Made by a program: the position numbers and the translations under genes. The notes beneath the pieces were generated by a model. That model was given only the letters and a program-made list of their open reading frames with translations. It searched no databases and had not been told where the DNA came from. A DNA stretch of 44,614 nucleotides from a virus, in IMG/VR virus record IMGVR_UViG_3300007236_000007, positions 1-44,614 of that record, one strand, 5' to 3'. Shown here in pieces: positions 17,263 to 40,512 of the stretch. Position 1 is the first letter of the stretch. Each line of letters begins with the position of its first letter.

Positions 17263-17664
17263 ATGCACGATTTCAAAATAGTCAGGCTATCAACAAAAGA
17301 AGTAATTATTTGTAAGACAAATTCTAAAAATGCGTCTGCAAGTTCAATTATTTTGGAAGATCCGTTTGAAATAAAATCGTTCATGAATCCTCAAACTGGA
17401 GACTTTAATTCAACTCTCATAGATTGGTTACAATATAGTGATGATACTATAGTAGAAGTTGCCGCGTACAATGTCATTGCAATGAATACACCTTCCCCAG
17501 AAATTATTGACCATTATGAAATGATTTTAAGAAGAAAGGCTGCAGCTGCAAATTCTGAACTCAATGAAACTGAAGGGCCTGGATTAGAAGATGTTGATGA
17601 AGAACATGAACATACTATTGAAGAACTTATGAGAATGATAAACGGTAATAAAGTCTATCATTAA
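17263..17664 (+). CDS. Sm-like-fold hypothetical protein, conserved after uvsW
   Basis: 133 residues from the ATG at 17263, which follows TTAGGAAAC. A longer in-frame start at 17233 would lie inside uvsW and lacks a ribosome-binding site. The opening FKIVRLSTKEVIICK, then LIDWLQYSDDTIVEVAAYNVIAM, resembles the Sm1/Sm2 strand pattern of LSM-type RNA-binding proteins. The tail after residue 100 is acidic (GLEDVDEEHEHTIEEL). It shares this pattern with the protein at 34230-34577, so the two may be paralogs. Function is not known. Confidence 0.7.
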   Translation: MHDFKIVRLSTKEVIICKTNSKNASASSIILEDPFEIKSFMNPQTGDFNSTLIDWLQYSDDTIVEVAAYNVIAMNTPSPEIIDHYEMILRRKAAAANSELNETEGPGLEDVDEEHEHTIEELMRMINGNKVYH

Positions 17665-17678
17665 GGGTCTACATACCC

Positions 17679-17707
17679 AGTATAACAGTAGAATCAACTT
17701 GTGTCAA
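17679..17707 (-). promoter_or_regulatory. Candidate antisense sigma70-type promoter
   Basis: Reading leftwards, TTGACA (complement of TGTCAA at 17702-17707) is separated by 17 bases from TATACT (complement of AGTATA at 17679-17684). A transcript from here would run antisense into the Sm-like gene and uvsW. No minus-strand gene is visible downstream. Confidence 0.45.
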
Positions 17708-17736
17708 TAGAAAAAAAAATTTATTTTCTATTGACA
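17702..17736. repeat. Perfect 13-bp inverted repeat overlapping two -35 boxes
   Basis: Left arm 17702-17714 (TGTCAATAGAAAA) and right arm 17724-17736 (its exact complement) are separated by 9 bases. Each arm ends in a TTGACA -35 hexamer, in opposite orientation. It could be an operator, a weak AT-rich terminator for the uvsW operon, or a cruciform or origin-like site. Confidence 0.85.
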
Positions 17737-17760
17737 AGAAACACTTTTTTGTGGTATTAT
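17731..17760 (+). promoter_or_regulatory. Early sigma70-type promoter of gp55
   Basis: TTGACA, 18-base spacer, TATTAT, 30 bases before the gp55 ATG. It resembles the host housekeeping consensus closely and should place the late sigma factor under host-polymerase control early in infection. Confidence 0.8.
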
Positions 17761-17789
17761 CTTTGTAATTGTATAAGGAATTATTATGT

Positions 17790-18341
17790 ATGGCTAAGAA
17801 AAGCACTAGAAATCATTATGTAGACAACAAAAAGTTGTTGGAAGAGATGACAAAATATAAGGATGCCGTCAACCTTGCCGCTGAGCAGGACACAGAGCGC
17901 CCAAGAGTTCCAAATTATATTGGTGAGTGTATTATGAAGATTGCACAGCATCTCTCTTATAAACCCAATTTTATCAACTATACATATAAAGAAGAAATGA
18001 TATCAGATGGTATTGAAAATTGTCTATTGTATATTGATAATTTTAATCCAGAAAAATCAAAAAATCCATTCGCATATTTTACTCAGATTATTTACTATGC
18101 TTTCATTCGAAGGATTCAAAAAGAAAAGAAACAGACTTATGTAAAATATAAGGCATTGGAAAATCAAGAATTGATTGATGAAATTATGCAAGGACCAAAT
18201 GGTAGTCCTATGAAAAATAATTTCTTAGAATTTATTCACAATAATATGGATGATTTTCTTGCAGACTTTGAAGAAACCCAAAGAAAGAAAAAGCAAAAAG
18301 CCAAGGAAAAGAGAGAAGGTAAGGAATCTGAAACTTCATGA
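17790..18341 (+). CDS. 55: Late-transcription sigma factor gp55
   Basis: 183 residues, nearly the T4 gp55 length (185 aa). The gene is the divergent sigma factor that directs host RNA polymerase to TATAAATA promoters together with the sliding clamp. The conserved core is EEMISDGIENCLLYIDNFNP followed by KNPFAYFTQIIYYAFIRRIQ, a region-2-like segment that holds the -10 recognition helix. The C-terminus is very rich in Lys, Arg and Glu. The ATG at 17790 follows AAGGA; an in-frame TTG upstream is rejected. The stop overlaps the gp47 start. Confidence 0.93.
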   Translation: MAKKSTRNHYVDNKKLLEEMTKYKDAVNLAAEQDTERPRVPNYIGECIMKIAQHLSYKPNFINYTYKEEMISDGIENCLLYIDNFNPEKSKNPFAYFTQIIYYAFIRRIQKEKKQTYVKYKALENQELIDEIMQGPNGSPMKNNFLEFIHNNMDDFLADFEETQRKKKQKAKEKREGKESETS

Positions 18342-19360
18342 AAATTGCACTGATTACGGACACTCACTTCGGCGCTAGAGGTGACTCCACACTTTTCCAT
18401 GACTATTTTATGGAATTTTATGATAATGTATTTTTTCCTTACTTGGAAAAGAATAATATTAAGACTGTAATTCATCTTGGAGATGTTACAGACCGAAGAA
18501 AGTTTATCAACTATAATATTCTTGATGGCTTACGAAGTGGATTTATAAAGAAGATTAAAGACTATGACTCTTATTTTATTATTGGTAATCATGATGTGTA
18601 TTATAAAAACACAAATCGTATTAACTCTATGGGACAACTTTTCGGGGATGATTTCAAGACTTATACAACGGCCACTACTCTTAATTTTGATGGGACTGAC
18701 ATTTGTTTTATTCCTTGGATAAATTCTGAGAATTATGATGAAACTCTAAAACACATAAAGAAAACCAAAGCAAAAATTGCGTTAGGACATTTAGAACTGA
18801 ATGGTTTTGAAATGATGCGTGGTATCAAGTGTGAAGCTGGTATGTCTATTGAACACTTTAAAAAATTTGATTTGACTTGTTCTGGACATTTTCATCACAA
18901 AAGCAATCAAGGAGAAATTCATTATTTGGGAGCCCCATATGAATTATTTTGGAATGATTGTGATGATCCTAAAGGATTTCATATTTTAGATACGGGCTCA
19001 ATGGAATTGCAGTTTGTTCAAAACCCACATCAAATGTTTCATAAGATTTATTATGATGAAAATAAAAAATATGATTTGTCAAAATATGAAAACAAATATG
19101 TAAAAATTATTGTTAAGAATAAAAGATCTCAATATAAGTTCGATACATTTGTTGACTCTTTATATAAGAAAGATGTTGCTGATTTATCTATTGTCGATGA
19201 AACAGATTTTGAGTTTGAAGAACAAAGTGATGTAGACACTACAAAAGACACTATGTCTCTTCTTACAAGTTATATCGATAATTATGAGATTGATGTTGAC
19301 AAGAACAAACTAAAACAGATTATGCAAGATTTATATGTCTCTGCTTTGAGAGGTGATTGA
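18338..19360 (+). CDS. 47: Recombination nuclease subunit gp47 (SbcD/Mre11-like)
   Basis: 340 residues (T4 gp47 is 339). Calcineurin-type phosphoesterase motifs are in order: DTHFGARGD (residue 8), HLGDVTDRR (about 47), IIGNHDVYYK (about 82), GHLELNG (about 149) and SGHFHHKS (about 184). With gp46 it resects DNA ends for recombination-dependent replication and degrades host DNA. It starts inside the gp55 stop and its own stop overlaps the gp46 start, so 55-47-46 form one coupled unit. Confidence 0.95.
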   Translation: MKIALITDTHFGARGDSTLFHDYFMEFYDNVFFPYLEKNNIKTVIHLGDVTDRRKFINYNILDGLRSGFIKKIKDYDSYFIIGNHDVYYKNTNRINSMGQLFGDDFKTYTTATTLNFDGTDICFIPWINSENYDETLKHIKKTKAKIALGHLELNGFEMMRGIKCEAGMSIEHFKKFDLTCSGHFHHKSNQGEIHYLGAPYELFWNDCDDPKGFHILDTGSMELQFVQNPHQMFHKIYYDENKKYDLSKYENKYVKIIVKNKRSQYKFDTFVDSLYKKDVADLSIVDETDFEFEEQSDVDTTKDTMSLLTSYIDNYEIDVDKNKLKQIMQDLYVSALRGD

Positions 19361-21075
19361 TGATTGAGTTTAAAACTATTAAATGGAAGAACTTTCTTTC
19401 CACTGGTAATTATTTTACAGAAGTGCAACTAAATCGCTCATCTTCTACTCTTATTGTTGGTGAGAATGGAGCAGGAAAATCTACCATTTTGGATGCATTG
19501 ACATTTGGTTTGTTTGGAAAATCTTTTAGAAAAATTAATAAACCACAGCTTATAAACTCTATAAACAATAAAGATGCTCTGATTGAGATTACCTTTAAAA
19601 TTGGTAAGAATGATTACTTGGTGCGCCGCGGTATCAAACCCAATATTTTTGAAATATGGGTAAATGGTAAAATGTTAGACCAAGATTCAAAAATTCGTGA
19701 TAGCCAGATTTATTTGGAAGAAAACATTCTCAAACTGAATTATAAGTCATTTACTCAAACTGTTATTTTGGGTAGTGCTACTTTTGTTCCTTTCATGCAA
19801 CTTTCTGCAATCGATAGAAGAGAAATTATTGAAGATATTTTGGATATAAAAATCTTTTCTGCAATGAATGAAATTCTAAAAGCAAAAATGGCTGCATTGA
19901 AAGAAACAATGACAGAAAATGAAAAAAACCGTGAAGTCCAAGATTATAAGATTGAACTTCAAGAAAGAAATATTGAAGATGCAAAGACGACAAAGAAAAC
20001 TGCGATTAATACTTTTAAGAAAAAGATAAAAGAAAAGAAGGCTGAACAGAAACAGTGTATTGACAAAAATACAGAATTGCATGAACAAATATCAAATTTA
20101 TTGGAAAAGATTATACATGAAAGTAAAATATCTGATAGAAAGAAAAAACTTGAACGTCTAGAAACTAAACTCTCAAATAATGCAGAAAAAATACAAAACG
20201 ACATCTCATGGTTTGAAGGCAATGATGTTTGTCCATCATGCCAACAAGATATTAATGAAAATCATAAGAATTGTATTGTGGAAGAGAAGGATAAGAAAAA
20301 GGAAGAAGTTTTGACAGCTGTTCAATCTTTGTCTGACGAATTGATTGAGATTGATTCTGAATTACATTATATTGAAGAAATCAAAACATCTATCACAAAT
20401 CTTAATAATGTAGTTAGTTCTAATAATGATAAACATCAATATCTACAAAAAAGTATTGATGAACTTGAGGCTGAAATAGAAGATGCGGAAAATAATAATA
20501 CAAGTGTTTCTAAATTAGAAAAGGAATTAAAAGAGTTTAAAAAGATTTCCAAAGAGTTGGACAATGAACGCAAAACTCTTTCCGAAACAAAAAACTATCA
20601 TGTGGTTGCATCACAGTTTTTGAAGGACACTGGTGTAAAAACTTCTATTATAAAATATTATTTGCCAATAATGAACAAGTTAGTAAATAAGTATCTACAA
20701 GAAATGGATTTCTATATTAACTTCACAATGGATGAAAAGTTTAATGAGAATATTAAATCCAGAGGCAGAGAAGGATTTACATATAGTTCTTTTAGTGAAG
20801 GAGAAAAGATGAGAATTGACCTTGCTCTCTTGTTTACTTGGAGAGAAATTGCTCGAATGAAGAACAGTGTCAACACAAATCTTCTGATTCTTGATGAAGT
20901 GTTTGATAGTTCTTTAGATGCGACTGGAACAGATGAGTTTTTGAAGTTGTTAAACACTCTTGGCGGAAACAATGTATTTGTGATTTCACATAAAGGAGAT
21001 ATTCTATATGATAAGTTCCACAGTGTGATTAAATTTGAAAAAGTAAAAAACTTTAGCCAAATTGAAAAAAATTGA
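19360..21075 (+). CDS. 46: Recombination nuclease subunit gp46 (SbcC/Rad50-like)
   Basis: 571 residues (T4 gp46 is 560). An SMC-type ATPase: Walker A VGENGAGKST at about residue 34, two coiled-coil arms (about 175-280 and 320-420) flanking a zinc-hook CPSC at about residue 290, signature motif FSEGEKMRIDLAL, and Walker B LLILDEVFDSSLD. The partner is gp47. The ATG at 19360 is chosen over an in-frame TTG three bases earlier because of the TGATG overlap with gp47. The gene ends just before the promoter of the modification operon. Confidence 0.95.
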   Translation: MIEFKTIKWKNFLSTGNYFTEVQLNRSSSTLIVGENGAGKSTILDALTFGLFGKSFRKINKPQLINSINNKDALIEITFKIGKNDYLVRRGIKPNIFEIWVNGKMLDQDSKIRDSQIYLEENILKLNYKSFTQTVILGSATFVPFMQLSAIDRREIIEDILDIKIFSAMNEILKAKMAALKETMTENEKNREVQDYKIELQERNIEDAKTTKKTAINTFKKKIKEKKAEQKQCIDKNTELHEQISNLLEKIIHESKISDRKKKLERLETKLSNNAEKIQNDISWFEGNDVCPSCQQDINENHKNCIVEEKDKKKEEVLTAVQSLSDELIEIDSELHYIEEIKTSITNLNNVVSSNNDKHQYLQKSIDELEAEIEDAENNNTSVSKLEKELKEFKKISKELDNERKTLSETKNYHVVASQFLKDTGVKTSIIKYYLPIMNKLVNKYLQEMDFYINFTMDEKFNENIKSRGREGFTYSSFSEGEKMRIDLALLFTWREIARMKNSVNTNLLILDEVFDSSLDATGTDEFLKLLNTLGGNNVFVISHKGDILYDKFHSVIKFEKVKNFSQIEKN

Positions 21076-21085
21076 AAAAAAACTA

Positions 21086-21115
21086 TTGACGAACTATGGT
21101 AAAATAGTATATACT
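21086..21115 (+). promoter_or_regulatory. Sigma70-type promoter of the modification operon
   Basis: TTGACG, 18-base spacer, TATACT, starting 11 bases after the gp46 stop. The leader contains a 6-bp hairpin, ATTAGG/CCTAAT (21126-21144), and an AGAGGAGA ribosome-binding site before the ATG at 21183. The operon therefore has its own, probably early, start site. Confidence 0.75.
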
Positions 21116-21182
21116 GAGATCATAGATTAGGAACAACACCTAATTTAATGTTTCAAACACCATGAATCAGAGGAGAATAGAC

Positions 21183-22394
21183 ATGGCAAAGAAAGTAGAA
21201 TCAGTTGATGTAGTAGACGTAAACGCATTTTTTGGATTTGAAGAAAAACATTTACTTCAATATCAACGACATTATGAAGATTTTTGGAAAACTCATATGC
21301 CAAAAATCTTTGGAAAAAATTTATCCAGATATTTAAATTTTGTAGGATTTGAGCTTATAGAAACTGCGCTCGATTATGCACAAAAAATTGGACGGGCCTC
21401 TTCAAGAAGTAGCGATCTTCGCGCAGTAGGGCGATCTTTAGATGAAAATGGTTGGGAAATGAAACATGTTCCACCTATTGCGTTTAGATTTAAAGATGGA
21501 AGAATTCTAGTAATTACTGGAAATTCTCGTGGAGAAAATTTAAAAGACAGGGGCGTTGATAAAATGCCTGTGGCAATGTTTGAATCTTCTGAACTAGATA
21601 ATTCATTTCACTTGAAAGAAGCGCTAATTTACATGGCGCAACAAACTCAAGAAAAAAATGGAAACTTTGTTCCGGCGACTTCTCATGATATTCAAAAAGC
21701 ACTCCGAGATCTAATTACTCTTTTTTCAGAATCATCTGGTGACGCTGGTGTAGACCCACACAATATTGTTGCATATGAAGCAGCCGTTAAATCATTGTGG
21801 GATGGTGCAACAGAACAGCAAGTTGCTAGAGTTGTCCAAAAAGTTTGGAATGATCATAATCCACATAATGTAATAATCTCATATAAAAGAGAAGAGGGTT
21901 TAGCAAAACTTGAAGAATTTAATTTCAATACTGATCCTTGTGATATTTCTGGAGTCATTTATGTTATGTTTGGTTGGGAAACTTCTCAGCGGGGATTTAC
22001 ATCTGCATACGAATTGGCGATGGAAAACCCAGAAATGGAAATTAGAATTGTGATAAATCCTGGCACATTAAATCCAAGCAAATCTTCAACATTCGAACAT
22101 GAATATGAGAAGCGGATAAAACAATTTGTATCCGAATTTGATAAACACAAAGGCGCACAAATTTTTGTTTCTTCACAAAACTTGGAAAAAGATGCTAAAC
22201 TTCAAGTTAAAATTAATCATCAAAGAGTATATGTCTATGCTGCTCTTCCATCGATTGGAAAAGAACATGATTTGAGTCGTCCAGTTTTCTTTCACAATAA
22301 AGGACAATATTTTTATCAAAGAGATAATGGATATCAAGTGTGGATGAGTCACGAAGATGAGTTTGAAAATACTGAATATGATATGGCTGCATGA
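21183..22394 (+). CDS. ParB-like domain protein in DNA-modification operon
   Basis: 403 residues from the ATG at 21183, which follows GAGGAGA; a further in-frame ATG at 21162 would swallow that site. Residues about 78-135 (LRAVGRSLDENGWE, VPPIAFRFKDGRILVITGNS, then RGENLKDRGVDKMPVAMFE) resemble the ParB/sulfiredoxin-like fold, where the usual GxxR loop appears as GNSRGENL. Residues 140-260 are mainly helical. The C-terminal 150 residues are not recognised (VIYVMFGWETSQRGF, RIVINPG). It is the first gene of a four-gene coupled operon, and ParB-like proteins recur in phage base-modification clusters. Its role (sequence recognition, nucleotide binding or regulation) is unknown. Confidence 0.6.
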   Translation: MAKKVESVDVVDVNAFFGFEEKHLLQYQRHYEDFWKTHMPKIFGKNLSRYLNFVGFELIETALDYAQKIGRASSRSSDLRAVGRSLDENGWEMKHVPPIAFRFKDGRILVITGNSRGENLKDRGVDKMPVAMFESSELDNSFHLKEALIYMAQQTQEKNGNFVPATSHDIQKALRDLITLFSESSGDAGVDPHNIVAYEAAVKSLWDGATEQQVARVVQKVWNDHNPHNVIISYKREEGLAKLEEFNFNTDPCDISGVIYVMFGWETSQRGFTSAYELAMENPEMEIRIVINPGTLNPSKSSTFEHEYEKRIKQFVSEFDKHKGAQIFVSSQNLEKDAKLQVKINHQRVYVYAALPSIGKEHDLSRPVFFHNKGQYFYQRDNGYQVWMSHEDEFENTEYDMAA

Positions 22395-23209
22395 TAAAAA
22401 GTATATTATGTGAAGTTGTCGAAAGACGATCAAAAGATAATGAAGTTGCTGTGCTGCTGAGTGGGGGTGTTGACTCCCTCTCAGTGGCATTTGCTGCATC
22501 TGATGTGGGTAAAAAAATTCATGCATATAGTTTTCATTTAGATACTCATGTTTCTTATGATTTTCAAAAGGCAAAAGAAGTATCAGAAATATTTGGTTGG
22601 AAATTTACTGGAATTTCTATACCCACTAAAAATATAGTTTCAGATTTTAAAAAACTTTCTATGCTTGGTTGTAAAAAGAAAACCGCATATGAATGCACAT
22701 ATCCGTTTCTTTATGTATATCCAGAAATAGAACAAACCGAAGTTCTTTCTGGTTGGGCCGCAGATGGATATTACGGAATTTCTAAAAAGGCAATGATTCA
22801 CTATCGACATACTCAAGAGTTGTTTGATGAATTTAGAGAAGACTATTTTCGTCCAGACAAATGTGCGAATTATCCTTGGCACAAAGCAGTTTCTATGCAA
22901 CATGATAAAAAACTTATTGTTCCATATCTAGATCAATCTGTAAAGGCATTTTTCTATATGCATACTTGGGAGCAATTGAACAAACCCTCTGAGAAACACC
23001 ATGTTCGAAACGCTTTCGAACAATTTAAATTGATAGGAAATGTAAAAAAACACTTGAACTTACAGATAAATTCTGGTATAATAGAGCTATTCGAATCATT
23101 AATCGATAACAATGAGATTAATTTTAGAAATAGGACAAGAGTTATGGACATTTGCCGTGATTGGTATGTGCTAAATAGTACACCATCACTAGAAGGATAT
23201 TTGAAATGA
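22391..23209 (+). CDS. Asparagine synthetase-type PP-loop amidotransferase
   Basis: 272 residues. The PP-loop SGGVDS (residues 24-29) sits in AVLLSGGVDSLSVAFA, followed by the asparagine-synthetase landmarks SGWAADGYYG (118-127, in place of GEGADE.FGG), VPYLDQSVKAFF (175-186) and a K..(H)R pair (K200, R204). Family members adenylate a carboxylate with ATP and let an amine attack it. The usual N-terminal glutaminase domain is absent, so ammonia or another amine must come from elsewhere. It overlaps the genes on both sides (ATGA). In context it most likely amidates a carboxymethyl group made by the next two enzymes. Confidence 0.8.
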   Translation: MIKSILCEVVERRSKDNEVAVLLSGGVDSLSVAFAASDVGKKIHAYSFHLDTHVSYDFQKAKEVSEIFGWKFTGISIPTKNIVSDFKKLSMLGCKKKTAYECTYPFLYVYPEIEQTEVLSGWAADGYYGISKKAMIHYRHTQELFDEFREDYFRPDKCANYPWHKAVSMQHDKKLIVPYLDQSVKAFFYMHTWEQLNKPSEKHHVRNAFEQFKLIGNVKKHLNLQINSGIIELFESLIDNNEINFRNRTRVMDICRDWYVLNSTPSLEGYLK

Positions 23210-24402
23210 GTTATACACCATATAATTTACAAGATGTTTATGATGCATCTGAACAGAACAAATTTAAAGTAATTTCAACATTTGCCGGCGGGGGAGGATC
23301 TTCCACTGGATATCGTCTTGCTGGTGGTAAAATTCTGGCTATAAATGAATTTGTAGAAGAGGCGTGTAATACCTATCGTGAAAATTATCCAGAGACACCT
23401 ATTCTGCCCGGCGATATTAAAGAATTGACTGGCCAACATTTCTTGGATGCAGCTGGAGTAAAAGTTGGGGAGATAGATATTCTGGATGGTTCTCCGCCAT
23501 GTTCTGCGTTTTCTGTGGCAGGCAAACTATCTCATAATAGTATTGAAACTGAATACTTAGATTTTGATGGTAATGTTATGACACGCAAAGAAAGTGGTAA
23601 ACATTCTGATGGATGGGGTCAAACTAAAAAGTATTCTGATGGAAAGATAGTTGAAAATATTGAAGATTTGTTTTTTGATTTTTTGCGTATTGCAGATGAT
23701 ATTCGCCCTAAAGTAATTATTGCAGAAAATGTAAAAGGATTGACTGTTGGAGAAGCAAAAAACTACCTTAATAAAATACTCAACAGATTCGAGGAAATTG
23801 GATATAATATTTCGTATCAAGTTTTGGATAGTAGATATTTTGGAGTTTCGCAGACTCGAACCAGATGTATTTTTATTGGAGTAAGACAGGACATTGCCGA
23901 TCAAGTTGGCTTGAACTTTATGACAATTCAAAATGTTTTTCCAACTCCAGATTTGAAAACAATTCCTCTGAAAGATGCTTTGATTGGTTTAGAATATGAT
24001 GATGAAGAAATTTCTTATCTTACTGAAAAGTTTTCTAATACTGCATATTGGAAACAAACTGGTAGTATAATGCCCGTTGATCCAGATAAAGTTCTAACAG
24101 GAGGCGATTATCACCCGAAAGGACACCACTTTAACTTGAAAAGAGTATCACAGTATGCTCCAGCACCGACCTTAACCGCTATGGGGAGTGCTGATACTAC
24201 TGCTGGTGCATTCCACTGGGCAGAACCTAGAAAGTTGACCCTCGGCGAGCTGAAGCGCATTATGTCACTTCCAGATGACTTTAAACTTACTGGAAAATGG
24301 AATCAAAAAGCAGAAAGAATTGGAAGGATGGTTCCGCCACTGATGATGAAAAGAATTGCAGAATCTGTATATAAAAATGTTTTGGAGAAATATAATGGCT
24401 GA
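23206..24402 (+). CDS. C5-cytosine DNA methyltransferase family, predicted carboxymethyltransferase
   Basis: 398 residues with a complete catalytic set: motif I STFAGGGGSSTGYRLAGG (24-41), motif IV SPPCSAFS with nucleophile C99, motif VI ENV (174-176), motif VIII QTRTR (216-220), motif IX R-x(7)-PTLTAMG (about 313-327) and motif X at 372-378. The target recognition region between VIII and IX is short. Motif X reads IGRMVPP, so the nearly invariant Asn that contacts the cofactor is Arg374. In M.MpeI, changing the equivalent Asn374 to a basic residue allows use of carboxy-SAM. A carboxy-SAM synthase homolog follows with an 8-base overlap. I infer transfer of a carboxymethyl group to C5 of cytosine in DNA; plain methylation is the alternative. 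No restriction enzyme is adjacent. Confidence 0.85.
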   Translation: MSYTPYNLQDVYDASEQNKFKVISTFAGGGGSSTGYRLAGGKILAINEFVEEACNTYRENYPETPILPGDIKELTGQHFLDAAGVKVGEIDILDGSPPCSAFSVAGKLSHNSIETEYLDFDGNVMTRKESGKHSDGWGQTKKYSDGKIVENIEDLFFDFLRIADDIRPKVIIAENVKGLTVGEAKNYLNKILNRFEEIGYNISYQVLDSRYFGVSQTRTRCIFIGVRQDIADQVGLNFMTIQNVFPTPDLKTIPLKDALIGLEYDDEEISYLTEKFSNTAYWKQTGSIMPVDPDKVLTGGDYHPKGHHFNLKRVSQYAPAPTLTAMGSADTTAGAFHWAEPRKLTLGELKRIMSLPDDFKLTGKWNQKAERIGRMVPPLMMKRIAESVYKNVLEKYNG

Positions 24403-25093
24403 TTTCACATTTGCACACCGCGAAGAAGGTTTTGATGAACATATTGATAAAAGTATTAGAGGTTATGGAGATTTGTTGGATGATGTAATTTCTCTATCAA
24501 GATACTTTGTGGAAGATGGTACTAATGTTTATGATATTGGATGTTCAACTGGTAAACTGACTCAACGAATGTTAGAGGCAAATCAGGATTTTTGCTATGA
24601 TGCAAACTATATTGGAGTTGAAGTCGCAGATGGATTTTATGATGATATGATAAAAAGACAGGAGCATATCAGAACAATACACCCTTGGGTTAGTGTTGAT
24701 TTTAGACATGAAGATGTAAGAGACACCGAATTTGAAAATGCCTCTTTAATTACTTCAATATTTACTTTGCAGTTTATGTCAAAAATTGATCGGCGATTTA
24801 CTATTCAAAGAATTCATGATGGATTGAATGAAGGCGGTGGTTTTATTTTTGCAGAAAAAACTATTTGTCAAAATGCAAATTTTCAAGACATGCTCACATT
24901 TAATTATTATGATTTCAAAAGAAAATCTTTTGATACAGAAGATATTATGAATAAAGAAAGAACTCTTAGAAACATGTTGAAACCAAACACTTGGCAAGAA
25001 ATAAATGAAATGATGTGGGACGCAGGTTTTGAAGATGTCCAACCTTTCTGGAGAAATCATATGTTTGTTGGAGCAATTGCCATAAAAAAATAA
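24395..25093 (+). CDS. cmoA-like: CmoA-like carboxy-S-adenosylmethionine synthase
   Basis: 232 residues (E. coli CmoA is 247) and similar along the whole length. It has an FDEHIDKSIRGYGDLL opening (CmoA: F.....RSVPGYS.I), motif I VYDIGCSTG (45-53), an E-V-A cofactor segment, ENASLITSIFTLQF (114-127; CmoA ENASMVVLNFTLQF), NEGGGFIFAEK, YYDFKR (171-176; CmoA HHDFKR) and AGFEDVQPFWRNHMFVGAIAIK. An Arg at 189 lies within one position of the CmoA Arg199 implicated in binding the extra carboxylate. CmoA converts SAM and prephenate to carboxy-SAM. No CmoB partner for tRNA modification is present; the partner here is the DNA methyltransferase overlapping it. The start at 24395 follows TTGGAG. Confidence 0.85.
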   Translation: MADFTFAHREEGFDEHIDKSIRGYGDLLDDVISLSRYFVEDGTNVYDIGCSTGKLTQRMLEANQDFCYDANYIGVEVADGFYDDMIKRQEHIRTIHPWVSVDFRHEDVRDTEFENASLITSIFTLQFMSKIDRRFTIQRIHDGLNEGGGFIFAEKTICQNANFQDMLTFNYYDFKRKSFDTEDIMNKERTLRNMLKPNTWQEINEMMWDAGFEDVQPFWRNHMFVGAIAIKK

Positions 25094-25101
25094 AAAGGCC
25101 C

Positions 25102-25130
25102 TTGACAAAACTGATTCGTTCCTGTAGCAT
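25102..25130 (+). promoter_or_regulatory. Sigma70-type promoter of the VWA/peptidase gene
   Basis: TTGACA, 17-base spacer, TAGCAT. After 11 bases comes TGATGATTC (25142-25150), a string found at the same distance behind the promoter at 27562. A 5-bp hairpin, TTCCT/AGGAA (25148-25161), involves the AGGA ribosome-binding site. Confidence 0.75.
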
Positions 25131-25168
25131 GTAAATATAAGTGATGATTCCTATGAAGGAAATATGTG

Positions 25169-27547
25169 ATGTCAAATGTTCTATTTACAAAGAACTCCAA
25201 AAGTCTCCTAGCCAAACTGATGGCAGAAGAAGACCTTACGGTTCAACATCGTAAAGTTGAAACCGCGTTTTTTGACGTTGAAAAACGTCTATTAGTTGTA
25301 CCAATTTGGAAAGATATGTCCGATAACCTTTATGACTTGTTTATGGGTCATGAAGTCGGACATGCTTTATATACTCCAGCGGATACAGAAGTTCTCCAAG
25401 AAGCAATCGGCCGTTCCAACAAAGACTTTGTAAACGTAGTCGAAGATGCTCGTATTGAGAAAATGATGAAAATAAAATTCCCTGGCTTGCGGGCTCCTTT
25501 CTACAAAGGATATCAAGAGTTAAATGAGCGGGATTTCTTTGGGACAAATAATAAAGAAATTTCTACCTTTTCTTTCATTGACCGTATCAATCTGTTTTAC
25601 AAATCTTCAATGAATGATTTTGATTTTAACATGATATTTTCAGAAGAAGAAAAACCTCTTGTGAAGAAAGTTGGAAAAACAGAAACTTTCGAAGAAGTTG
25701 CAGCTGTTGCAGAAGAGATTTACAATTTCATCAAAGATAAAGTTCAAAATCGTCAAGAACAGAATTCCCAACAAAGTGGTGGTGAAGGTTCTGGTGAACA
25801 ATCTCAAAATTCAGAAATGTCAGAACTAAAAGATGACAATTCACACTCTTCTTCATCTTCTCAAACTGAAACTGAAAATGAAAATGAAGAAGAAAATCAA
25901 ACGGATGGTTCCGGCGATGGCGGTTCTTCTGATGATACAGGTGAAGATGAACAAAATTCACAAGAATCTGGTAGTTCTTCTAATTCTTCTGATGAAGAAT
26001 CTGATGGAGAAAATGGAAAATCTTATACATCAGCTGAAGAAGAACAAAATGCAAATGATGTTGCATCATTGGGCGGTGGAAGTGGTTTCTCTGACCCTGA
26101 TGAATTTTCCTCTAAAACTGACAATTCAATGTCAGAAAATATGTCACAAATGATTGATCGTATGGCAGATAATATTGAATATTACACATTATCTGATTTA
26201 AATCTGAAAGATCATGTGATAAGTCATGATATGATTCATGATGCAATCGATGCGGCCAAAACTTATTTTTACAATAACTCAGATTGGACTAGTTTTGCAA
26301 AAAATAATGTAGACAAGATTTCTCTTTACAAAAAAGTATTGAGTGATAATAACGCTACTATAAACTATCTTGTAAAAGAATTTGAAATGAAAAAATCTGC
26401 ACAAGAATATGCAGCGAGTTATGAAACAAAATCTGGAAATCTGAATACCAGCAAAATTTGGAGTTACAAACTAAATGATGATATCTTCAAACGTAAATCG
26501 ATTACTCCAGAAGGCAAAAATCATGGCATGGTAATGATGGTCGATTGGTCGGGTTCTATGCACTCTATGCTATATAAGACCGTTGTTCAAACTGTTGTCC
26601 TTGCCACATTTTGTAAACGTGTTGGAATTCCTTTTGATGTTTACAATTTTTCTGATCAAAACCGAGATTATGATGATGGTAAAAAGTTGTTTGCCGATCA
26701 AAAGAACGGTGTTTATAACAATCGGACATTTATCCATAATAATGTTAAACTTCATCATGTTCTCAGCAGTTCAATGAAAAAATCAGAATTTATCAGGGCA
26801 TGTAACAACTATCTGTTTTTGGCTTGGGGATTGAACAATTGTTATGGATTGATGCGTTCCAGCAAATTGCCTCATAATGTCGATCTTCAGCTTGGTGGAA
26901 CTCCTCTAAATCAAAGTTTGATGATTCTTGACAAAGTTGTTCATGAATTCAAACGGAAACATTCTGTAGAAAAAATGAACTTTGTTGTTTTGAGTGATGG
27001 TGCTGCCGGCGATACAATTGAGATAGTTGATGAAAATTCTGGTTGGCATCGTTCAGTTGCAGCAACTTGGCGGCATCATCCCAAAACTTCTGTGGTTTAT
27101 CATGAGCGTTCAAAAAAGACTTTCGTTCATCAACAAGGTTATCGTTCTAAAAATAAAAATGCAAAAAATCCTACTGAGTTTCTTGTCGAAACAATGAAAG
27201 AAGTTCATGGTGCAAAATCGATTGGATTTTACATTATAGACCGTACTTATGATCTAAATAACGCAATTCGGGCATATGTATTTCGGGATCGTGATGGATA
27301 CCATATGTATAATAACGAACTTTCAAAAGTTCGTTCAGAGTGTCGCAAAAATGGGTTTTGTGCAGCAAAAGATTGTGGGTATGATGAATACTATATTCTT
27401 GATATGCGTACTCAAAATGAAGATAGTGAACTTGAAGTTGATGAAAATATGACAAAAGCAAAGATTGCCAAACAGTTTTCAAAATTCCAAGGTTCAAAGA
27501 AAACCAGTCGGCAAATGTTAAATAAATTTGTCGATATCGTGAAGTAA
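25169..27547 (+). CDS. Metallopeptidase-VWA protein (CobT-like), partner of CobS-like ATPase
   Basis: 792 residues. The N-terminal zinc-peptidase signature HEVGH (61-65) and downstream VVEDARIE with Glu92 are the expected metal ligands. Residues about 195-310 form a long Ser/Asp/Glu/Asn/Gln-rich acidic linker. The C-terminal half is a von Willebrand A domain with MIDAS motif DWSGS (about 458-462) and a conserved SDGAAGD further on. The layout resembles CobT-like proteins that act with MoxR/CobS ATPases, and such an ATPase is the next gene. It may be an ATPase-regulated protease or a chaperone rather than a cobalt chelatase. The ATG at 25169 is preferred to the GTG just before it. Confidence 0.8.
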   Translation: MSNVLFTKNSKSLLAKLMAEEDLTVQHRKVETAFFDVEKRLLVVPIWKDMSDNLYDLFMGHEVGHALYTPADTEVLQEAIGRSNKDFVNVVEDARIEKMMKIKFPGLRAPFYKGYQELNERDFFGTNNKEISTFSFIDRINLFYKSSMNDFDFNMIFSEEEKPLVKKVGKTETFEEVAAVAEEIYNFIKDKVQNRQEQNSQQSGGEGSGEQSQNSEMSELKDDNSHSSSSSQTETENENEEENQTDGSGDGGSSDDTGEDEQNSQESGSSSNSSDEESDGENGKSYTSAEEEQNANDVASLGGGSGFSDPDEFSSKTDNSMSENMSQMIDRMADNIEYYTLSDLNLKDHVISHDMIHDAIDAAKTYFYNNSDWTSFAKNNVDKISLYKKVLSDNNATINYLVKEFEMKKSAQEYAASYETKSGNLNTSKIWSYKLNDDIFKRKSITPEGKNHGMVMMVDWSGSMHSMLYKTVVQTVVLATFCKRVGIPFDVYNFSDQNRDYDDGKKLFADQKNGVYNNRTFIHNNVKLHHVLSSSMKKSEFIRACNNYLFLAWGLNNCYGLMRSSKLPHNVDLQLGGTPLNQSLMILDKVVHEFKRKHSVEKMNFVVLSDGAAGDTIEIVDENSGWHRSVAATWRHHPKTSVVYHERSKKTFVHQQGYRSKNKNAKNPTEFLVETMKEVHGAKSIGFYIIDRTYDLNNAIRAYVFRDRDGYHMYNNELSKVRSECRKNGFCAAKDCGYDEYYILDMRTQNEDSELEVDENMTKAKIAKQFSKFQGSKKTSRQMLNKFVDIVK

Positions 27548-27556
27548 AAAATGAAA

Positions 27557-27575
27557 AGCCCTTGACAAAAGGGCT
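27557..27575 (+). repeat. Hairpin around the -35 box of the cobS promoter
   Basis: 7-bp stem AGCCCTT/AAGGGCT with a 5-base loop that includes part of TTGACA. A second palindrome, CTATCA-TT-TGATAG (27574-27587), fills the spacer. They may be operators, or the first may end transcription from the gene upstream. Confidence 0.65.
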
Positions 27576-27590
27576 ATCATTTGATAGCAT
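27562..27590 (+). promoter_or_regulatory. Sigma70-type promoter of cobS-like gene
   Basis: TTGACA, 17-base spacer, TAGCAT, identical in both boxes and spacer length to the promoter at 25102. TGATGATTC again follows after 11 bases (27602-27610). Confidence 0.75.
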
Positions 27591-27638
27591 AATAATGTAA
27601 TTGATGATTCGTGAAACCTTCCAAGTGGAGAATATATA

Positions 27639-28799
27639 ATGTGGAATAAAACGAAAAAAATTGAGTTTCTTACGAAACTCATGGCAGAAAGTGGTTCTAT
27701 TGTTTCCAAACAAGAAATCAAGTCAGCGGCTTCCGCTTTTGGTGAATCAAGTCCACAATGGATGTGGAAACCAGAATTTCGCGCCGGACATGGTAAATAT
27801 GATGTTTCAAAATATGCAATGAAACTCACTGGTAATGTAGTCCAGATGAAACCAGTTGCACAAACAATGACTGCTGTTCCTACTACAGTAGTTTTGCCTG
27901 AACGTCATATCGATTCTCTCGTTCCAGAGAAAGATCCTAACTTTGTGAAATTTGGATTTTACAATGATTTGAAAACTATCCTTCAATCAAAAATGTTCTA
28001 TCCTGTTTTCATTACTGGTTTGTCTGGTAACGGTAAAACTTATGGAACACAACAACTTTGTGCCCAACTAAATCGTGAATGTATCACGGTTCCTATTACA
28101 ATAGAAACTGATGAATCTGACCTTCTTGGCGACAAAACTCTTGTTGATGGTAATGTTCTGTTTTCTCAGGGCCCTGTAATTGACGCAATGGAACGTGGCG
28201 CAGTTCTTATTCTTGATGAAGTTGACCTTGCATCAAATAAAATTATGTGTTTGCAATCCATTATTGATGGTAAAGGTGTTTACCTCAAAAAAGATAATCG
28301 GTTTGTAAAACCAGCTCCCGGCTTTACTGTGATTGCTACAGCAAACACAAAAGGTAAAGGTTCTGATGATGGACGTTTCATTGGTACTAATGTAATGAAC
28401 GAGGCGTTTCTTGAGCGTTTCAAAATTACATTTGAACAAGAATATCCCAATCAATCAGTTGAGAAAAAAATTCTCAGCAACCATCTGCAATCTTGCAAAG
28501 GTTCTGTTACTGATGAAGATGTGTCGGTGATTGAAAATCTTACGGTTTGGGCATCTGCCATTCGTAAAACCTTTGAAGAGGGTGGGATTGATGAAATCAT
28601 TTCGACTCGGCGTTTGGTTCACATTGTAGAAACATTCTCTATCTTTGGAAATGTTTTGAAGGCTGTTGAACTTTGTACAAATCGTTTTGATGATGATACG
28701 AAAGCATCATTTGTAGATCTATTTTCCAAAATTTATGGCGGAGAAGAAATCAATGAAACTGAAACTGAAGAAACATATGAAGAGGAAGTACCCTTTTGA
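27639..28799 (+). CDS. cobS: CobS/MoxR-type AAA+ ATPase
   Basis: 386 residues. Walker A GLSGNGKT (about 127-134), the MoxR-type ETDESDLLGD segment, Walker B AVLILDEVDLA, sensor region TVIATANTKGKGSDDGRF, and arginine-bearing STRRLVH near residue 325. It is related to CobS, the ATPase of aerobic cobaltochelatase, and is common in marine T4-like phages. The first 100 residues are a separate helical domain. The adjacent VWA/peptidase gene with a matching promoter makes this a MoxR-VWA type pair. A direct role in cobalamin synthesis is possible but unproven. The C-terminus is acidic and overlaps the next start. Confidence 0.9.
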   Translation: MWNKTKKIEFLTKLMAESGSIVSKQEIKSAASAFGESSPQWMWKPEFRAGHGKYDVSKYAMKLTGNVVQMKPVAQTMTAVPTTVVLPERHIDSLVPEKDPNFVKFGFYNDLKTILQSKMFYPVFITGLSGNGKTYGTQQLCAQLNRECITVPITIETDESDLLGDKTLVDGNVLFSQGPVIDAMERGAVLILDEVDLASNKIMCLQSIIDGKGVYLKKDNRFVKPAPGFTVIATANTKGKGSDDGRFIGTNVMNEAFLERFKITFEQEYPNQSVEKKILSNHLQSCKGSVTDEDVSVIENLTVWASAIRKTFEEGGIDEIISTRRLVHIVETFSIFGNVLKAVELCTNRFDDDTKASFVDLFSKIYGGEEINETETEETYEEEVPF

Positions 28800-29101
28800 T
28801 AGACTATAAATTCAATGAAGATGTATTGCTCGAAGAAGTTCGAGCATACATTGATAAGACCTACGAAGGTCATTATTCTAAAAACACATACCAATCAACT
28901 GAAGTAATCATGGGCAGAGGACATGGTGAAGGTTTTTGTATGGGCAATATAGACAAATACTCTAATCGATATGGTAAAAAAGGTTCCACAGAAGATTGGA
29001 GAAAAGACTTGCTTAAAATCATTCATTATGGTATACTGGCTTTATATAATCATGATATGACTTATGGAGAAAATGATGAGCATCAATCTGAAACATTCTG
29101 A
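28796..29101 (+). CDS. DUF3310-like small protein
   Basis: 101 residues. The best start is TTG at 28796, overlapping the cobS stop and preceded by AGAGGAAG at good spacing; no suitable ATG exists until mid-protein. The sequence (EVRAYIDKTYEGHY, RGHGEGFCMGNIDKYSNRYGK, LLKIIHYGILALY) matches the small phage DUF3310/SaV family, found next to replication genes and sometimes labelled nucleotide kinase without firm evidence. The conserved N-x-x-K-Y-x-x-R-Y/F-G core is present. Confidence 0.7.
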   Translation: MIDYKFNEDVLLEEVRAYIDKTYEGHYSKNTYQSTEVIMGRGHGEGFCMGNIDKYSNRYGKKGSTEDWRKDLLKIIHYGILALYNHDMTYGENDEHQSETF

Positions 29102-29237
29102 TAACTTGGATCGAGACTATAAAAAACTCAGCAAGGGCAGAAAAGAATATGTCAAAAAAATGGCATCAAAACAAAAACAAACTATTTCTAATTACTTGAA
29201 TTCTAAATATGGAGAAATTGAAAATGAAATTGAGTGA
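29076..29237 (+). CDS. Small basic protein, overlapping both neighbours
   Basis: 53 residues starting MSINLKHSDNLDRDYKKL, with a TATGGAGA ribosome-binding site just upstream. It overlaps the previous gene by 26 bases and the clamp gene by 14. It is Lys-rich in the middle and looks helical. T4 also has small genes (45.2, rpbA) between 46 and 45, but I see no similarity. Coding status rests on the ribosome-binding site, an open frame filling an otherwise 120-base gap, and the overlap style of the genome. Confidence 0.5.
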   Translation: MSINLKHSDNLDRDYKKLSKGRKEYVKKMASKQKQTISNYLNSKYGEIENEIE

Positions 29238-29922
29238 GCAAACGCAAAATATATTGAAGAATTATTCGACTATTAATCAGTCAATTTACTTGAAAAAAGG
29301 AAGTCGATTATCCACTATTTCTGTTATGAGAAACATTTTATCAGCAACTGATGTAAGTGAAGAATTTCCAGTAGATTTTTGCATTTATGATTTGGGAAAA
29401 TTTCTAAATCTTTTGAAGATTTATCCAGAACTAGATTTTCATGATAAGTTTGTCATGATGAGCAATGGAGCAAAGACATATAAATTTATGGCTGCCGAAC
29501 CATCTATTATTGTCTATGTTGAGAATACTTTTGCATTAGAAGGTAGTGATAACAATCCAGAAGGATCGAAACCTTCGCCGGATTGGGATATTAATGTAAA
29601 GCTTCCAAATTCTACACTACATACTATCAATCAAGTGGCATCCATTTCTGGACTTCCTGATTATTCATTGTCAACAAAAGACGATGGAGTTGTTTATTTT
29701 TGTGCATTGGATAAAAAAGATGATACATCCAATGTTGCTGAAGAACCAGTTGGTGAATCAAATGCAACATTTAATATGTACTTCCGTTCAGAAAACCTAA
29801 AGCTAATCGAAGGTGATTATGATGTAGGGATTTCTAAAAATAAAATCTCAACTTTCCGACACCAGAAATTGCCAATTCAATATTGGATTACACTTGAACA
29901 AGATTCGACTTATGGGGAGTAA
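29224..29922 (+). CDS. 45: Sliding clamp gp45
   Basis: 232 residues (T4 gp45 is 228). The opening MKLSEQTQNILKNYSTINQS matches T4 (MKLSKDTTALLKNFATINSG) and fixes the start at 29224, with GGAGA upstream, rather than an in-frame ATG 15 bases earlier. Other family segments are FPVDFCIYDLGKFLNLL, MYFRSENLKLIEGDYDVGIS and WITLEQDSTYG. It is the trimeric clamp that gives polymerase processivity and activates late transcription with gp55. gp44 follows immediately. Confidence 0.92.
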   Translation: MKLSEQTQNILKNYSTINQSIYLKKGSRLSTISVMRNILSATDVSEEFPVDFCIYDLGKFLNLLKIYPELDFHDKFVMMSNGAKTYKFMAAEPSIIVYVENTFALEGSDNNPEGSKPSPDWDINVKLPNSTLHTINQVASISGLPDYSLSTKDDGVVYFCALDKKDDTSNVAEEPVGESNATFNMYFRSENLKLIEGDYDVGISKNKISTFRHQKLPIQYWITLEQDSTYGE

Positions 29923-29924
29923 GT

Positions 29925-30875
29925 ATGGACAATTTTTTATGGGTAGAAAAATATCGTCCATCCGATATCGATAATTGTATTCTAACTGATGAACTAAAAT
30001 CAACATTCAAAGAGTTTGTTGATACAGGAAGTTTACCCAATCTCCTATTGTCTGGCGGGCCAGGTGTTGGTAAAACAACTCTGGCTCGTGCCTTGTGCAA
30101 TGAGATGAAAATGGACTATATCTTAATCAACGGTTCCGAAGATAGTGGTATTGATGTTCTAAGAAATAAGATTCGAAACTATGCATCAACTGTAAGTTTT
30201 GATACTGGAAATAGTAAAGAATTTGGAAAGGTTATCATTTTAGACGAAGCGGATTATCTAAATCCACAATCAACTCAGCCCGCTCTGCGTGGATTCATTG
30301 AAGAGTTTTCTGGTAATTGTAGATTTATTCTTACATGCAATTTCAAGAATCGTATCATTGAACCACTGCATAGTAGATGTTCTCTTGTAGAATTTAAAAT
30401 CAAAAAATCTGACAAACCAAAATTGGCAGGAACTTTTTTCAATAGAGTAAAAACTATTCTTGATAAAGAAAATATTTCTTATAAAGAAAAGGTGGTTGTG
30501 GAACTTGTAATGAAACATTTTCCAGATTGGAGAAGAGTCTTAAATGAACTCCAGAGATATTCTGTTGGTGGTGAAATAGATGAAGGCCTTCTAACTGATG
30601 TGGGAGAGGTAAATATAAACAAACTCACATCGGCGATGAAGGATAAGAATTTCACAGAGATTAGAGGATGGACAACTCAGAACTTGGATAATGATCCAAA
30701 TACTTTATATAGAAAAATCTATGATGGACTGTATGAACACGCAGAACCATCTTCAATTCCTCAAGCAGTTGTGACTATTGCAGACTATTCATACAAGTCT
30801 GCATTTGTTGCCGATCAAGAAATAAATCTTGTGGCGTGTTTGACAGAGTTGATGATGGAGTGTGATTGGAAATGA
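29925..30875 (+). CDS. 44: Clamp loader large subunit gp44
   Basis: 316 residues (T4 gp44 is 319). AAA+ ATPase with the opening FLWVEKYRPSDIDNCIL, Walker A SGGPGVGKTT (about 44-53), Walker B KVIILDEAD (about 103-111), sensor-1 RFILTCNFKNRI and the SRC motif (HSRCSLVEF) with the arginine finger. It forms the clamp loader with gp62 and opens gp45 rings at primer ends. Its stop overlaps the next start. Confidence 0.95.
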   Translation: MDNFLWVEKYRPSDIDNCILTDELKSTFKEFVDTGSLPNLLLSGGPGVGKTTLARALCNEMKMDYILINGSEDSGIDVLRNKIRNYASTVSFDTGNSKEFGKVIILDEADYLNPQSTQPALRGFIEEFSGNCRFILTCNFKNRIIEPLHSRCSLVEFKIKKSDKPKLAGTFFNRVKTILDKENISYKEKVVVELVMKHFPDWRRVLNELQRYSVGGEIDEGLLTDVGEVNINKLTSAMKDKNFTEIRGWTTQNLDNDPNTLYRKIYDGLYEHAEPSSIPQAVVTIADYSYKSAFVADQEINLVACLTELMMECDWK

Positions 30876-39883: not shown

Positions 39884-40512
39884 CGGACGAAAAAGAAGTA
39901 GTAAATTTTGAGGTAGACCAAGAAACTTTTAGAGTTAAACCACCAGATGGTAACATGGCTTGGATTTCTGTATGGGACAATGTTTTGTCAGCAGAAAAGT
40001 GTGAAGAAATTATTGAAGAGTTTGAAAAGGCTTCTGAATATCATAAGAAAACAGAACATCCAGAATATAGAAGTTTTACTGAATTGAATTTTTTTGATCC
40101 AGCACTTCTTTCTGCAAATCCGAAGTTTGAAGAACTATCAATGGAACTTTTAGGGAAAGTTTCTGAATATGTTGAGAGTTATAGACAACACAATAATATC
40201 GCATTTTTTCCTCAACAATGTCATAATGAAGAAGTGAGAATGAAAAAATATTTTGCTGGTTCTGAGGATGATTTCAAGTATCATGCGGATGTTGGTGATT
40301 ATGCTTCTGCTAGAAGATTTCTTGTGTGCTTCTTTTATCTCAATACTGTAGAGGAAGGAGGAGAGACCGTATTTCCTGATTACAATACAAGCATCTCACC
40401 AGTGCAGGGTAGACTTGCAGTGTTTCCGCCTTTTTGGACGCATCCACACCAAGCTCAGCCTGCTGTATCCAATGATAAGTACATTGTAGGTACATATCTA
40501 CACTACATGTAA
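39880..40512 (+). CDS. Prolyl 4-hydroxylase-like 2-oxoglutarate/Fe(II) oxygenase
   Basis: 210 residues. Double-stranded beta-helix oxygenase with iron ligands H-x-D in YHADVGDY (about 134-136) and the distal His in WTHPHQA (about 188-190). RFLVCFFYLNTVEEGGETVF and GRLAVFPPFW are typical of P4H family members. The final KYIVGTYLHYM supplies the usual basic residue near the oxoglutarate. The substrate is unknown; homologs are widespread in marine T4-like phages. It is the last gene before the late promoter at 40516 and is coupled to gp41 by an ATGA overlap. Confidence 0.88.
   Translation: MTDEKEVVNFEVDQETFRVKPPDGNMAWISVWDNVLSAEKCEEIIEEFEKASEYHKKTEHPEYRSFTELNFFDPALLSANPKFEELSMELLGKVSEYVESYRQHNNIAFFPQQCHNEEVRMKKYFAGSEDDFKYHADVGDYASARRFLVCFFYLNTVEEGGETVFPDYNTSISPVQGRLAVFPPFWTHPHQAQPAVSNDKYIVGTYLHYM

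Follow-up and report, generated by a model that had tools for sequence, protein, structure and literature searches.

DNA cytosine carboxymethylation and its further tailoring have been worked out in Synechococcus phage S-B43 (Yang et al., Nat Commun, December 2025; PMC12783734). According to the main text of that report, CmoA of this phage was shown by experiment to produce carboxy-S-adenosylmethionine (carboxy-SAM or Cx-SAM); CmoX, a C5-methyltransferase homologue, places the carboxymethyl group on DNA cytosine to give 5-carboxymethylcytosine (5cxmC); and CmoY joins glycine to 5cxmC, the glycyl amide being present in the phage DNA. CmoX from S-B43 (SpCmoX) uses Cx-SAM exclusively as donor and acts within GC, a sequence specificity known for the S-B43 enzyme only, and 5cxmC confers resistance to HhaI. 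The same report catalogues 5,615 CmoX candidates, mentions a ParBc-domain protein of unknown function in many contigs, draws the glycine ligase cluster at an E threshold of 1e-56, and describes ligase clusters with differing active-site residues, including a second cluster with a glutaminase domain, ammonia presumably being its substrate. Here we compare with this system four plus-strand genes at positions 21183-25093 of the viral record IMGVR_UViG_3300007236_000007 (the window, i.e. the whole 44.6-kb stretch analysed, which is a fragment of a larger genome). We consider it highly probable that this operon, ORF1-cmoY-cmoX-cmoA, belongs to the CmoA-CmoX-CmoY DNA hypermodification system of tailed phages; judged from sequence, it very probably carboxymethylates cytosines of the phage's own DNA and goes on to turn the new group into the amide of an amino acid. 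An initial annotation, made from the letters of the window, had proposed a route from cytosine through 5-carboxymethylcytosine to an amide; this was novel to its author and not to the literature, the central idea being already in print (PMC12783734). New here is the swap of the tailoring half of the system, i.e. the ligase and the gene upstream of it, between otherwise near-identical phages.

The features concerned, in window coordinates, are:

21183..22394, plus strand: ORF1 (open reading frame 1), 403 residues, ParB/sulfiredoxin-fold-like core and a C-terminal part (profile, weak model)
21324..21662, plus strand: ParB/sulfiredoxin (Srx)-like core of ORF1, approximately residues 48-160 (structure comparison of the model)
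22391..23209, plus strand: cmoY homologue, 272 residues, predicted ATP-dependent amide ligase with the synthetase domain of asparagine synthetase (homology, model)
22460..22477, plus strand: PP-loop SGGVDS, CmoY residues 24-29 (alignment)
23206..24402, plus strand: cmoX homologue, 398 residues, putative DNA cytosine C5-carboxymethyltransferase (match to SpCmoX, 8YF3)
23500..23502, plus strand: codon of the catalytic Cys99 in the SPPC motif, residues 96-99 (SpCmoX Cys98, HhaI Cys81; alignment)
24325..24327, plus strand: codon of Arg374, the carboxylate-binding Arg (SpCmoX Arg350, HhaI Asn304; alignment)
24395..25093, plus strand: cmoA homologue, 232 residues, putative carboxy-SAM synthase (match to SpCmoA and TIGR00740)
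21125..23190, no strand: block with ORF1 and nearly all of cmoY, replaced in the 203-kb relative L011 (blastn)
21086..21115, plus strand: promoter-like site TTGACG-18-TATACT upstream of the operon (tentative)

The same three enzymes are encoded in one gene string in S-B43 (MN018232.1), to whose assayed CmoA, CmoX and CmoY the window proteins are 61, 62 and 47% identical, respectively, with the same catalytic Cys, the same carboxylate-binding Arg and a ligase that likewise has no glutaminase domain; S-B43 belongs to the Kyanoviridae and, like the window phage, is one of the large cyanophage/T4-like phages. The two differ in gene order (cmoA-cmoY-cmoX in S-B43), in ORF1, to which nothing in the S-B43 record matches at E up to 1, and in 17 extra residues that follow the SPPC region of the window CmoX. 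The window methyltransferase matches Pfam DNA_methylase (E 2.6e-57), and its top match in the PDB is SpCmoX itself (8YF3; 476 bits, E 6.9e-142, residues 4-395), the next match scoring 74 bits. SpCmoX residues F25, E47, F48, D69, C98 and R350 correspond to F26, E48, F49, D70, C99 and R374 in the window, all six being invariant in a four-sequence alignment. Both sequence hallmarks given in PMC12783734, SPPC and the Arg at R374, are thus present, and the remaining Cx-SAM contacts of SpCmoX (the first four residues named) are preserved. A related substitution is found in the engineered M.MpeI N374K, for which the same report describes use of carboxy-SAM upon replacement of the conserved-motif Asn by a basic residue; unlike that variant, the window enzyme is natural, has Arg rather than Lys, and is accompanied by a dedicated cofactor supply and a ligase.

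The window CmoA matches TIGR00740 (E 9.7e-34, residues 2-231) and phrog_4752 (E 4e-61). Its longest frame begins at TTG 24356, and the ATG at 24395 agrees with the starts in relatives. The gene adjoins cmoX, and no match to CmoB was found in any of the five records examined (the window, itself a genome fragment, the 203-kb relative, two shorter relative contigs and S-B43), in keeping with the initial annotation. At the position aligned with what we take to be Arg199 of Escherichia coli CmoA, neither the window protein nor the active SpCmoA has Arg, and the position is non-discriminating.

The Asn_synthase match of the window CmoY (Pfam, E 2.8e-15), together with those of its neighbours to DNA_methylase and TIGR00740, bears out the asparagine-synthetase-like, C5-methyltransferase and CmoA-like families assigned initially. 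CmoY contains SGGVDS at residues 24-29 and an invariant K202 that corresponds to the Lys of the asparagine-synthetase family. Its AlphaFold2 model (mean predicted local distance difference test, pLDDT, 91.5) resembles human ASNS (Z 23.4, 254 residues aligned, root-mean-square deviation (rmsd) 2.6) and beta-lactam synthetase (Z 23.3, 254 aligned, rmsd 3.5), the matches starting at approximately residues 225-233 of these proteins, i.e. without their N-terminal domains; a glutamine-hydrolysing (glutaminase) domain was found in the window CmoY neither by Pfam scan nor by structure comparison. The tblastn match to SpCmoY, E 3e-72, lies within the 1e-56 threshold of the glycine ligase cluster, E-values from the two sources not being strictly comparable. 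Because CmoY lacks a glutaminase domain and is like the glycine ligase, we prefer a glycyl amide to a primary amide, and, given that the pathway runs, glycine is the likely coupled amine. The initially proposed carboxy-SAM, 5cxmC and amide steps stand on the S-B43 chemistry, the close homologues and the retained residues; the primary amide, 5-carbamoylmethylcytosine, proposed as end product does not, since CmoY consists of the synthetase domain alone and resembles the glycine ligase. In locus L204 (3687-4871) a serine hydroxymethyltransferase gene (E 2.3e-142) is followed by a ParB-like gene and then by cmoY, and would supply glycine. Locus L193 (361-1377) has tandem ligases, with a second asparagine-synthetase-like gene directly before cmoY.

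Relatives of these genes were gathered as the closest ones among the matches listed, so that the fractions given here and below are not population frequencies. They fall into 102 contig clusters, in which contigs sharing any exact 400-mer were joined and which include five annotated phage records; the window's own copy (L006) and L011 share one cluster. A full-length filter retained 96 of 100 CmoX clusters, and a flank filter retained 40 of 80 CmoX, 39 of 67 CmoA and 31 of 66 CmoY loci; as these flank-complete loci include overlapping ones, they show linkage and not frequency. CmoX is accompanied by CmoA at every flank-complete locus (40/40) and by CmoY at 29 of the 40; CmoA is accompanied by CmoX at 39/39 and by CmoY at 22/39; and each of the 31 CmoY loci has both partners. 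Co-occurrence in related phages had been set beforehand as a check on the proposed pathway, and since CmoA stands alongside CmoX in all 40 loci, the CmoX-CmoA neighbourhood is not due to chance. In one locus (L047, 1435-3203) UDP-glucose dehydrogenase-like and epimerase-like genes lie between cmoX and cmoA, perhaps for a sugar-based tailoring.

The carboxylate-binding Arg follows the same pattern. Amongst full-length CmoX-like ORFs the R374 position is Arg in 95 of 96 and Leu in one, the latter in agreement with the methylase of Methylophilales phage Melnitz, whose neighbour is a TET/JBP oxygenase. Fourteen methyltransferases, hand-picked from the match list, were compared directly: Arg is found in 10 of the 11 that come with a CmoA-like gene in the same record (the window, S-B43, RN05-S, S-CRM01, vB-SscS-F1, PaBG, Yoloswag, AD1, TurkishDelight, Y3 and Mcat8), and in none of the three whose record has no CmoA match at E 0.01 (LoVEphage, CL131 and Melnitz, with Met, Asn and Leu, respectively). 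The CmoA-like match of Moraxella phage Mcat8, which belongs to the ten, is weaker (E 1.8e-6 to the window CmoA, E 2.2e-17 to TIGR00740) and lies directly downstream of the methyltransferase gene. Mcat8 had been considered a case of Arg without cmoA, with carboxy-SAM supplied by the host; this was dropped upon finding the CmoA-like gene directly after the methyltransferase, a correction that makes the link between Arg and CmoA slightly firmer. This 40-kb phage (L234, 2941-4648) has a minimal CmoX-CmoA pair, its diverged CmoA-like gene being annotated as hypothetical. In vB-SscS-F1, cmoA and a cmoY-like gene directly precede the methyltransferase. The CmoX-like methylase of Melnitz-2 (L005, 4010-6194), in which Leu stands in place of the Arg, adjoins a TET/JBP oxygenase, with no CmoA match.

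Our case rests on homology, conserved residues, co-occurrence and the swap described below, the enzymatic steps having been shown in S-B43; the window CmoA, CmoX and CmoY are presumably active. CmoA would make carboxy-SAM from SAM and, like the known CmoA enzymes, would use prephenate to do so. CmoX would flip the cytosine, Cys99 attacking C6 and the carboxymethyl group of carboxy-SAM passing to C5, with Arg374 holding the carboxylate, to give 5-carboxymethylcytosine in DNA. CmoY would adenylate the 5cxmC carboxylate with ATP and then couple an amine, most likely glycine, so that the end product would be 5-glycylcarboxymethylcytosine, probably shielding the genome from host restriction; evasion of restriction by the modified DNA, which the initial annotation also proposed, is plausible by analogy. 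ORF1 may act by bringing the ligase to DNA or clamping it there, or it may serve as a reader of the mark. In phage thymidine hypermodification, the handle is 5-hydroxymethyl-dU. The scheme proposed here resembles the thymidine systems of M6 and ViI (mentioned in PMC9599517) in that a handle is installed on the base and then tailored, and differs from them in its carboxymethyl handle on cytosine and its amide ligase.

The exchange of the tailoring half is seen most directly in L011, a 203-kb contig that has 99% DNA identity to the window at 17405-21124 and 23191-30405 and gives no blastn match to window positions 21125-23190. In place of this block L011 carries an ORF of 501 residues from a different family, together with a CmoY that is 46% identical to the window protein, whereas the CmoX and CmoA of L011 are 98% identical. 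The converse is found in the more distant L018, which has 60-84% identity in 150-base windows of positions 18000-20849 and 65-93% from 23250 on; at 21150-23249 the identity is 95-99% in 10 of 14 such windows and 88-93% in the other four. Contigs with an identical CmoY have three different contents in the place occupied by ORF1 (the slot): ORF1 itself, another ParB-like gene, and a type II restriction enzyme with a methyltransferase. The last of these is found in L019 (3682-5167; E 3.3e-15 and 4.4e-43), whose CmoY is 96% identical to that of the window.

Replacement at this place is recurrent. We used 142 loci to form 30 groups of at least two loci linked by at least 97% CmoX and at least 95% CmoA identity, several groups holding only overlapping loci of one contig. 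The slot gene differs in 10 of the 30 groups; CmoY differs (less than 80% identical or absent) in six, in all of which the slot differs too, and in the other four the slot changes while CmoY stays at least 80% identical. The ORF directly upstream was readable in 82 of the 102 clusters, an adjacent upstream ORF being absent in the other 20. In 24 of the 82 it is a DNA polymerase directly upstream of CmoY or CmoX, i.e. an empty slot; the remaining clusters have some 20 other upstream ORF families, a few of which are ordinary neighbours (gp46-like ATPase, clamp-loader subunit, cmoA). One slot family, that of L039 (2424-3794; eight members), has a C-terminal HNH nuclease domain: Pfam HNH matches three members (best E 8.9e-8), HNH_5 four and, weakly, DndB one, L039 itself having none of these, and the family profile matches HNH proteins in the PDB at E 2.5e-7.

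The main text of PMC12783734 does not discuss exchange of these genes, 'recombination' occurring there only in connection with strain construction and 'cassette' and 'horizontal' not at all. Nor is such exchange the subject of any other paper among the literature matches listed, which leave preprints and most subscription journals uncovered. That the ligase and the slot gene are replaced repeatedly over a constant core suggests selection to alter the final mark or its partner in the manner of an arms race, and the swap may change the amide displayed. It also provides near-isogenic natural pairs with which one can ask whether recombination changes the chemical identity of phage DNA, and what the ParB-like partner does; at the same time, a DNA chemistry so far assayed in a single phage is extended to an uncultivated marine T4-like lineage.

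The nature of ORF1 is less clear-cut than that of its neighbours. An alternative in-frame ATG lies at 21162, and GAGGAG precedes the start at 21183. The initial description of the first gene as ParB-like holds in part: ORF1 does not match Pfam PF02195 (ParB_N) at E up to 1 and is not filed there, and only two of 20 aligned slot proteins match it weakly (best E 0.0061), whereas a profile built from ORF1 and 19 proteins that occupy its position in related operons (10-19% identical to ORF1, the near-identical L008 excepted) matches Noc, a protein of the ParB fold, at E 1.6e-7. A narrower three-member ORF1 profile finds SbnI alone, at E 1.8. The structure model is poor (pLDDT 57 overall), and Foldseek gives no match for it at E <= 0.001, the best being 0.0036; nevertheless, ParB, Noc, sulfiredoxin and SbnI lead the lists of two programs for approximately residues 48-160 of this model. 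VIA-align, which covers only the families ranked by Foldseek and thus leaves unlisted families unexcluded, gives Z 8.1 for 5k5d (160 aligned, rmsd 4.0) and Z 7.8 for 6ryk (97 aligned, rmsd 2.8). A ParB/Srx fold in the wide sense is accordingly supported for the modelled core. Gly113 is invariant and Arg116 nearly so across the 20 aligned slot proteins; the Arg of the ParB P motif is reported to be required for nucleoside triphosphate (NTP) binding (PMC12704722), and Arg116 may be its equivalent and the Gly/Arg pair a nucleotide motif. ORF1 would thus share its core fold and this pair with the ParB-CTPase fold proteins (Noc, ParB, Srx and SbnI) treated in PMC12704722; it differs from them in its extra C-terminal part, in having no recognised helix-turn-helix or dimerisation domain, and in not matching PF02195. 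A DUF459 match (E 0.0018, under the cut-off) was treated as chance, and the fold matches of the C-terminal part (universal stress protein and dehydrogenases, Z approximately 5) are at noise level, with no function assigned.

ORF1 has no tblastn match at 1e-5 in the phage collection, and seeded scans of viral contigs found five loci, four near-identical and one (L062) at 21% overall identity. The 20-member profile finds ORFs in 29 of the 102 clusters at E 1e-3, its own members matching by construction, and ParB-annotated genes adjoin the methyltransferase in phages PaBG, TurkishDelight, Yoloswag, AD1 and Y3. Because ORF1 and CmoY are exchangeable together between phages, it is most likely that ORF1 acts together with the ligase, or else on DNA that bears the modification.

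Several observations weigh against this interpretation of the operon, or against parts of it. The window CmoA scores below the NCBI equivalog cut-off of TIGR00740 (117 against 193 bits), as does the experimentally assayed SpCmoA, at 116 bits. Staphylococcus phage vB-SscS-F1 (L231) has Gly at the position of the Arg despite cmoA in its record, and, of the flank-complete loci, 11 of the 40 with CmoX and 17 of the 39 with CmoA lack CmoY. The identity of CmoY to SpCmoY is only 47%, and glycine as the amine is not proven by this likeness. ORF1 relatives occur in 3 of the 102 clusters and ORF1 is therefore not an obligatory part of the system; identical CmoY is also found beside other upstream genes, which weakens any obligate ORF1-CmoY pairing.

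The alternatives differ in how much of the pathway they retain. An ordinary 5-methylcytosine methyltransferase, with a CmoA that serves tRNA cmo5U together with host CmoB, would be in line with bacterial CmoA, which feeds CmoB, and with the abundance of C5-methyltransferases in phages (364 phage records match); it is nevertheless highly improbable in view of the Arg in place of Asn at the position of HhaI N304, the linkage of CmoX to CmoA at every flank-complete locus, the ligase partner and the lack of a CmoB match in the five records. SpCmoX, with the same residues, is moreover reported to take only Cx-SAM (PMC12783734). The same pathway with CmoY coupling ammonia, to give 5-carbamoylmethylcytosine, or another amine or amino acid, we regard as unlikely. 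The reported ligase clusters with other active-site residues, one of them with a glutaminase domain (PMC12783734), speak for it, as does L011, in which a 46%-identical CmoY stands over near-identical CmoX and CmoA, a sensible arrangement if the coupled amine differs; a neighbour annotated with a glutamine amidotransferase domain in Streptomyces phage TurkishDelight also has a C-terminal part that aligns with CmoY. The window CmoY, however, has no glutaminase domain and matches SpCmoY inside the cluster threshold, with the above reserve on E-values, and the glycine-making enzyme is encoded two genes upstream of CmoY in L204. Glycine thus remains the preferred amine.

For ORF1 the question is rather one of partnership. 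It and the genes that replace it may be nucleases or selfish homing-type genes instead of modification partners, making up either a restriction-like half carried by the phage or elements whose gene conversion drives the ligase swap; taken jointly, these possibilities are less likely than not. The slot is hypervariable, one slot family bears the HNH domain, and a type II restriction enzyme and a methyltransferase occupy the slot in L019, whereas no nuclease domain was found by Pfam in ORF1, nor in most other slot proteins scanned, and the ParB-annotated genes beside the methyltransferase in distant phages suggest a lasting partnership. A by-eye reading of the L011 and L025 slot families as GIY-YIG-like plus ParB-like had no support from Pfam or PDB profiles and was set aside. 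One may speculate, at long odds, that a fixed CmoX-CmoA writer with a swapped cassette of ParB-fold protein and ligase would let near-identical phages put different amides on the same cytosines, the slot proteins being the matched reading or cutting half of a phage-borne hypermodification-restriction system directed against host or rival DNA.

The window derives from a T4-like phage of a marine, uncultivated lineage, with domains of portal gp20, capsid gp23, tail sheath, UvsW, UvsX and clamp-loader. Its DNA matches 13 records of the phage collection in short stretches, the best 10 of the 13 covering 2-4% of the query, and nine of these ten are cyanophage records that match at the gp41 helicase region. 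An AAA_23-type ATPase gene, which we take to be gp46-like, lies upstream of the operon; a 793-residue protein and an AAA ATPase are encoded downstream. The overlaps between successive genes of the operon, 4, 4 and 8 bases, are those first noted and were confirmed by ORF calling. A single promoter driving all four is plausible given the predicted site upstream, promoter-like sites (22, against 18.6 in shuffles, standard deviation 4.0) showing no excess over chance. Elsewhere, the window also encodes a 2-oxoglutarate (2OG)-Fe(II) oxygenase (39880-40512) and a protein with a Zeta-toxin/AAA_33-like domain (43147-44250).

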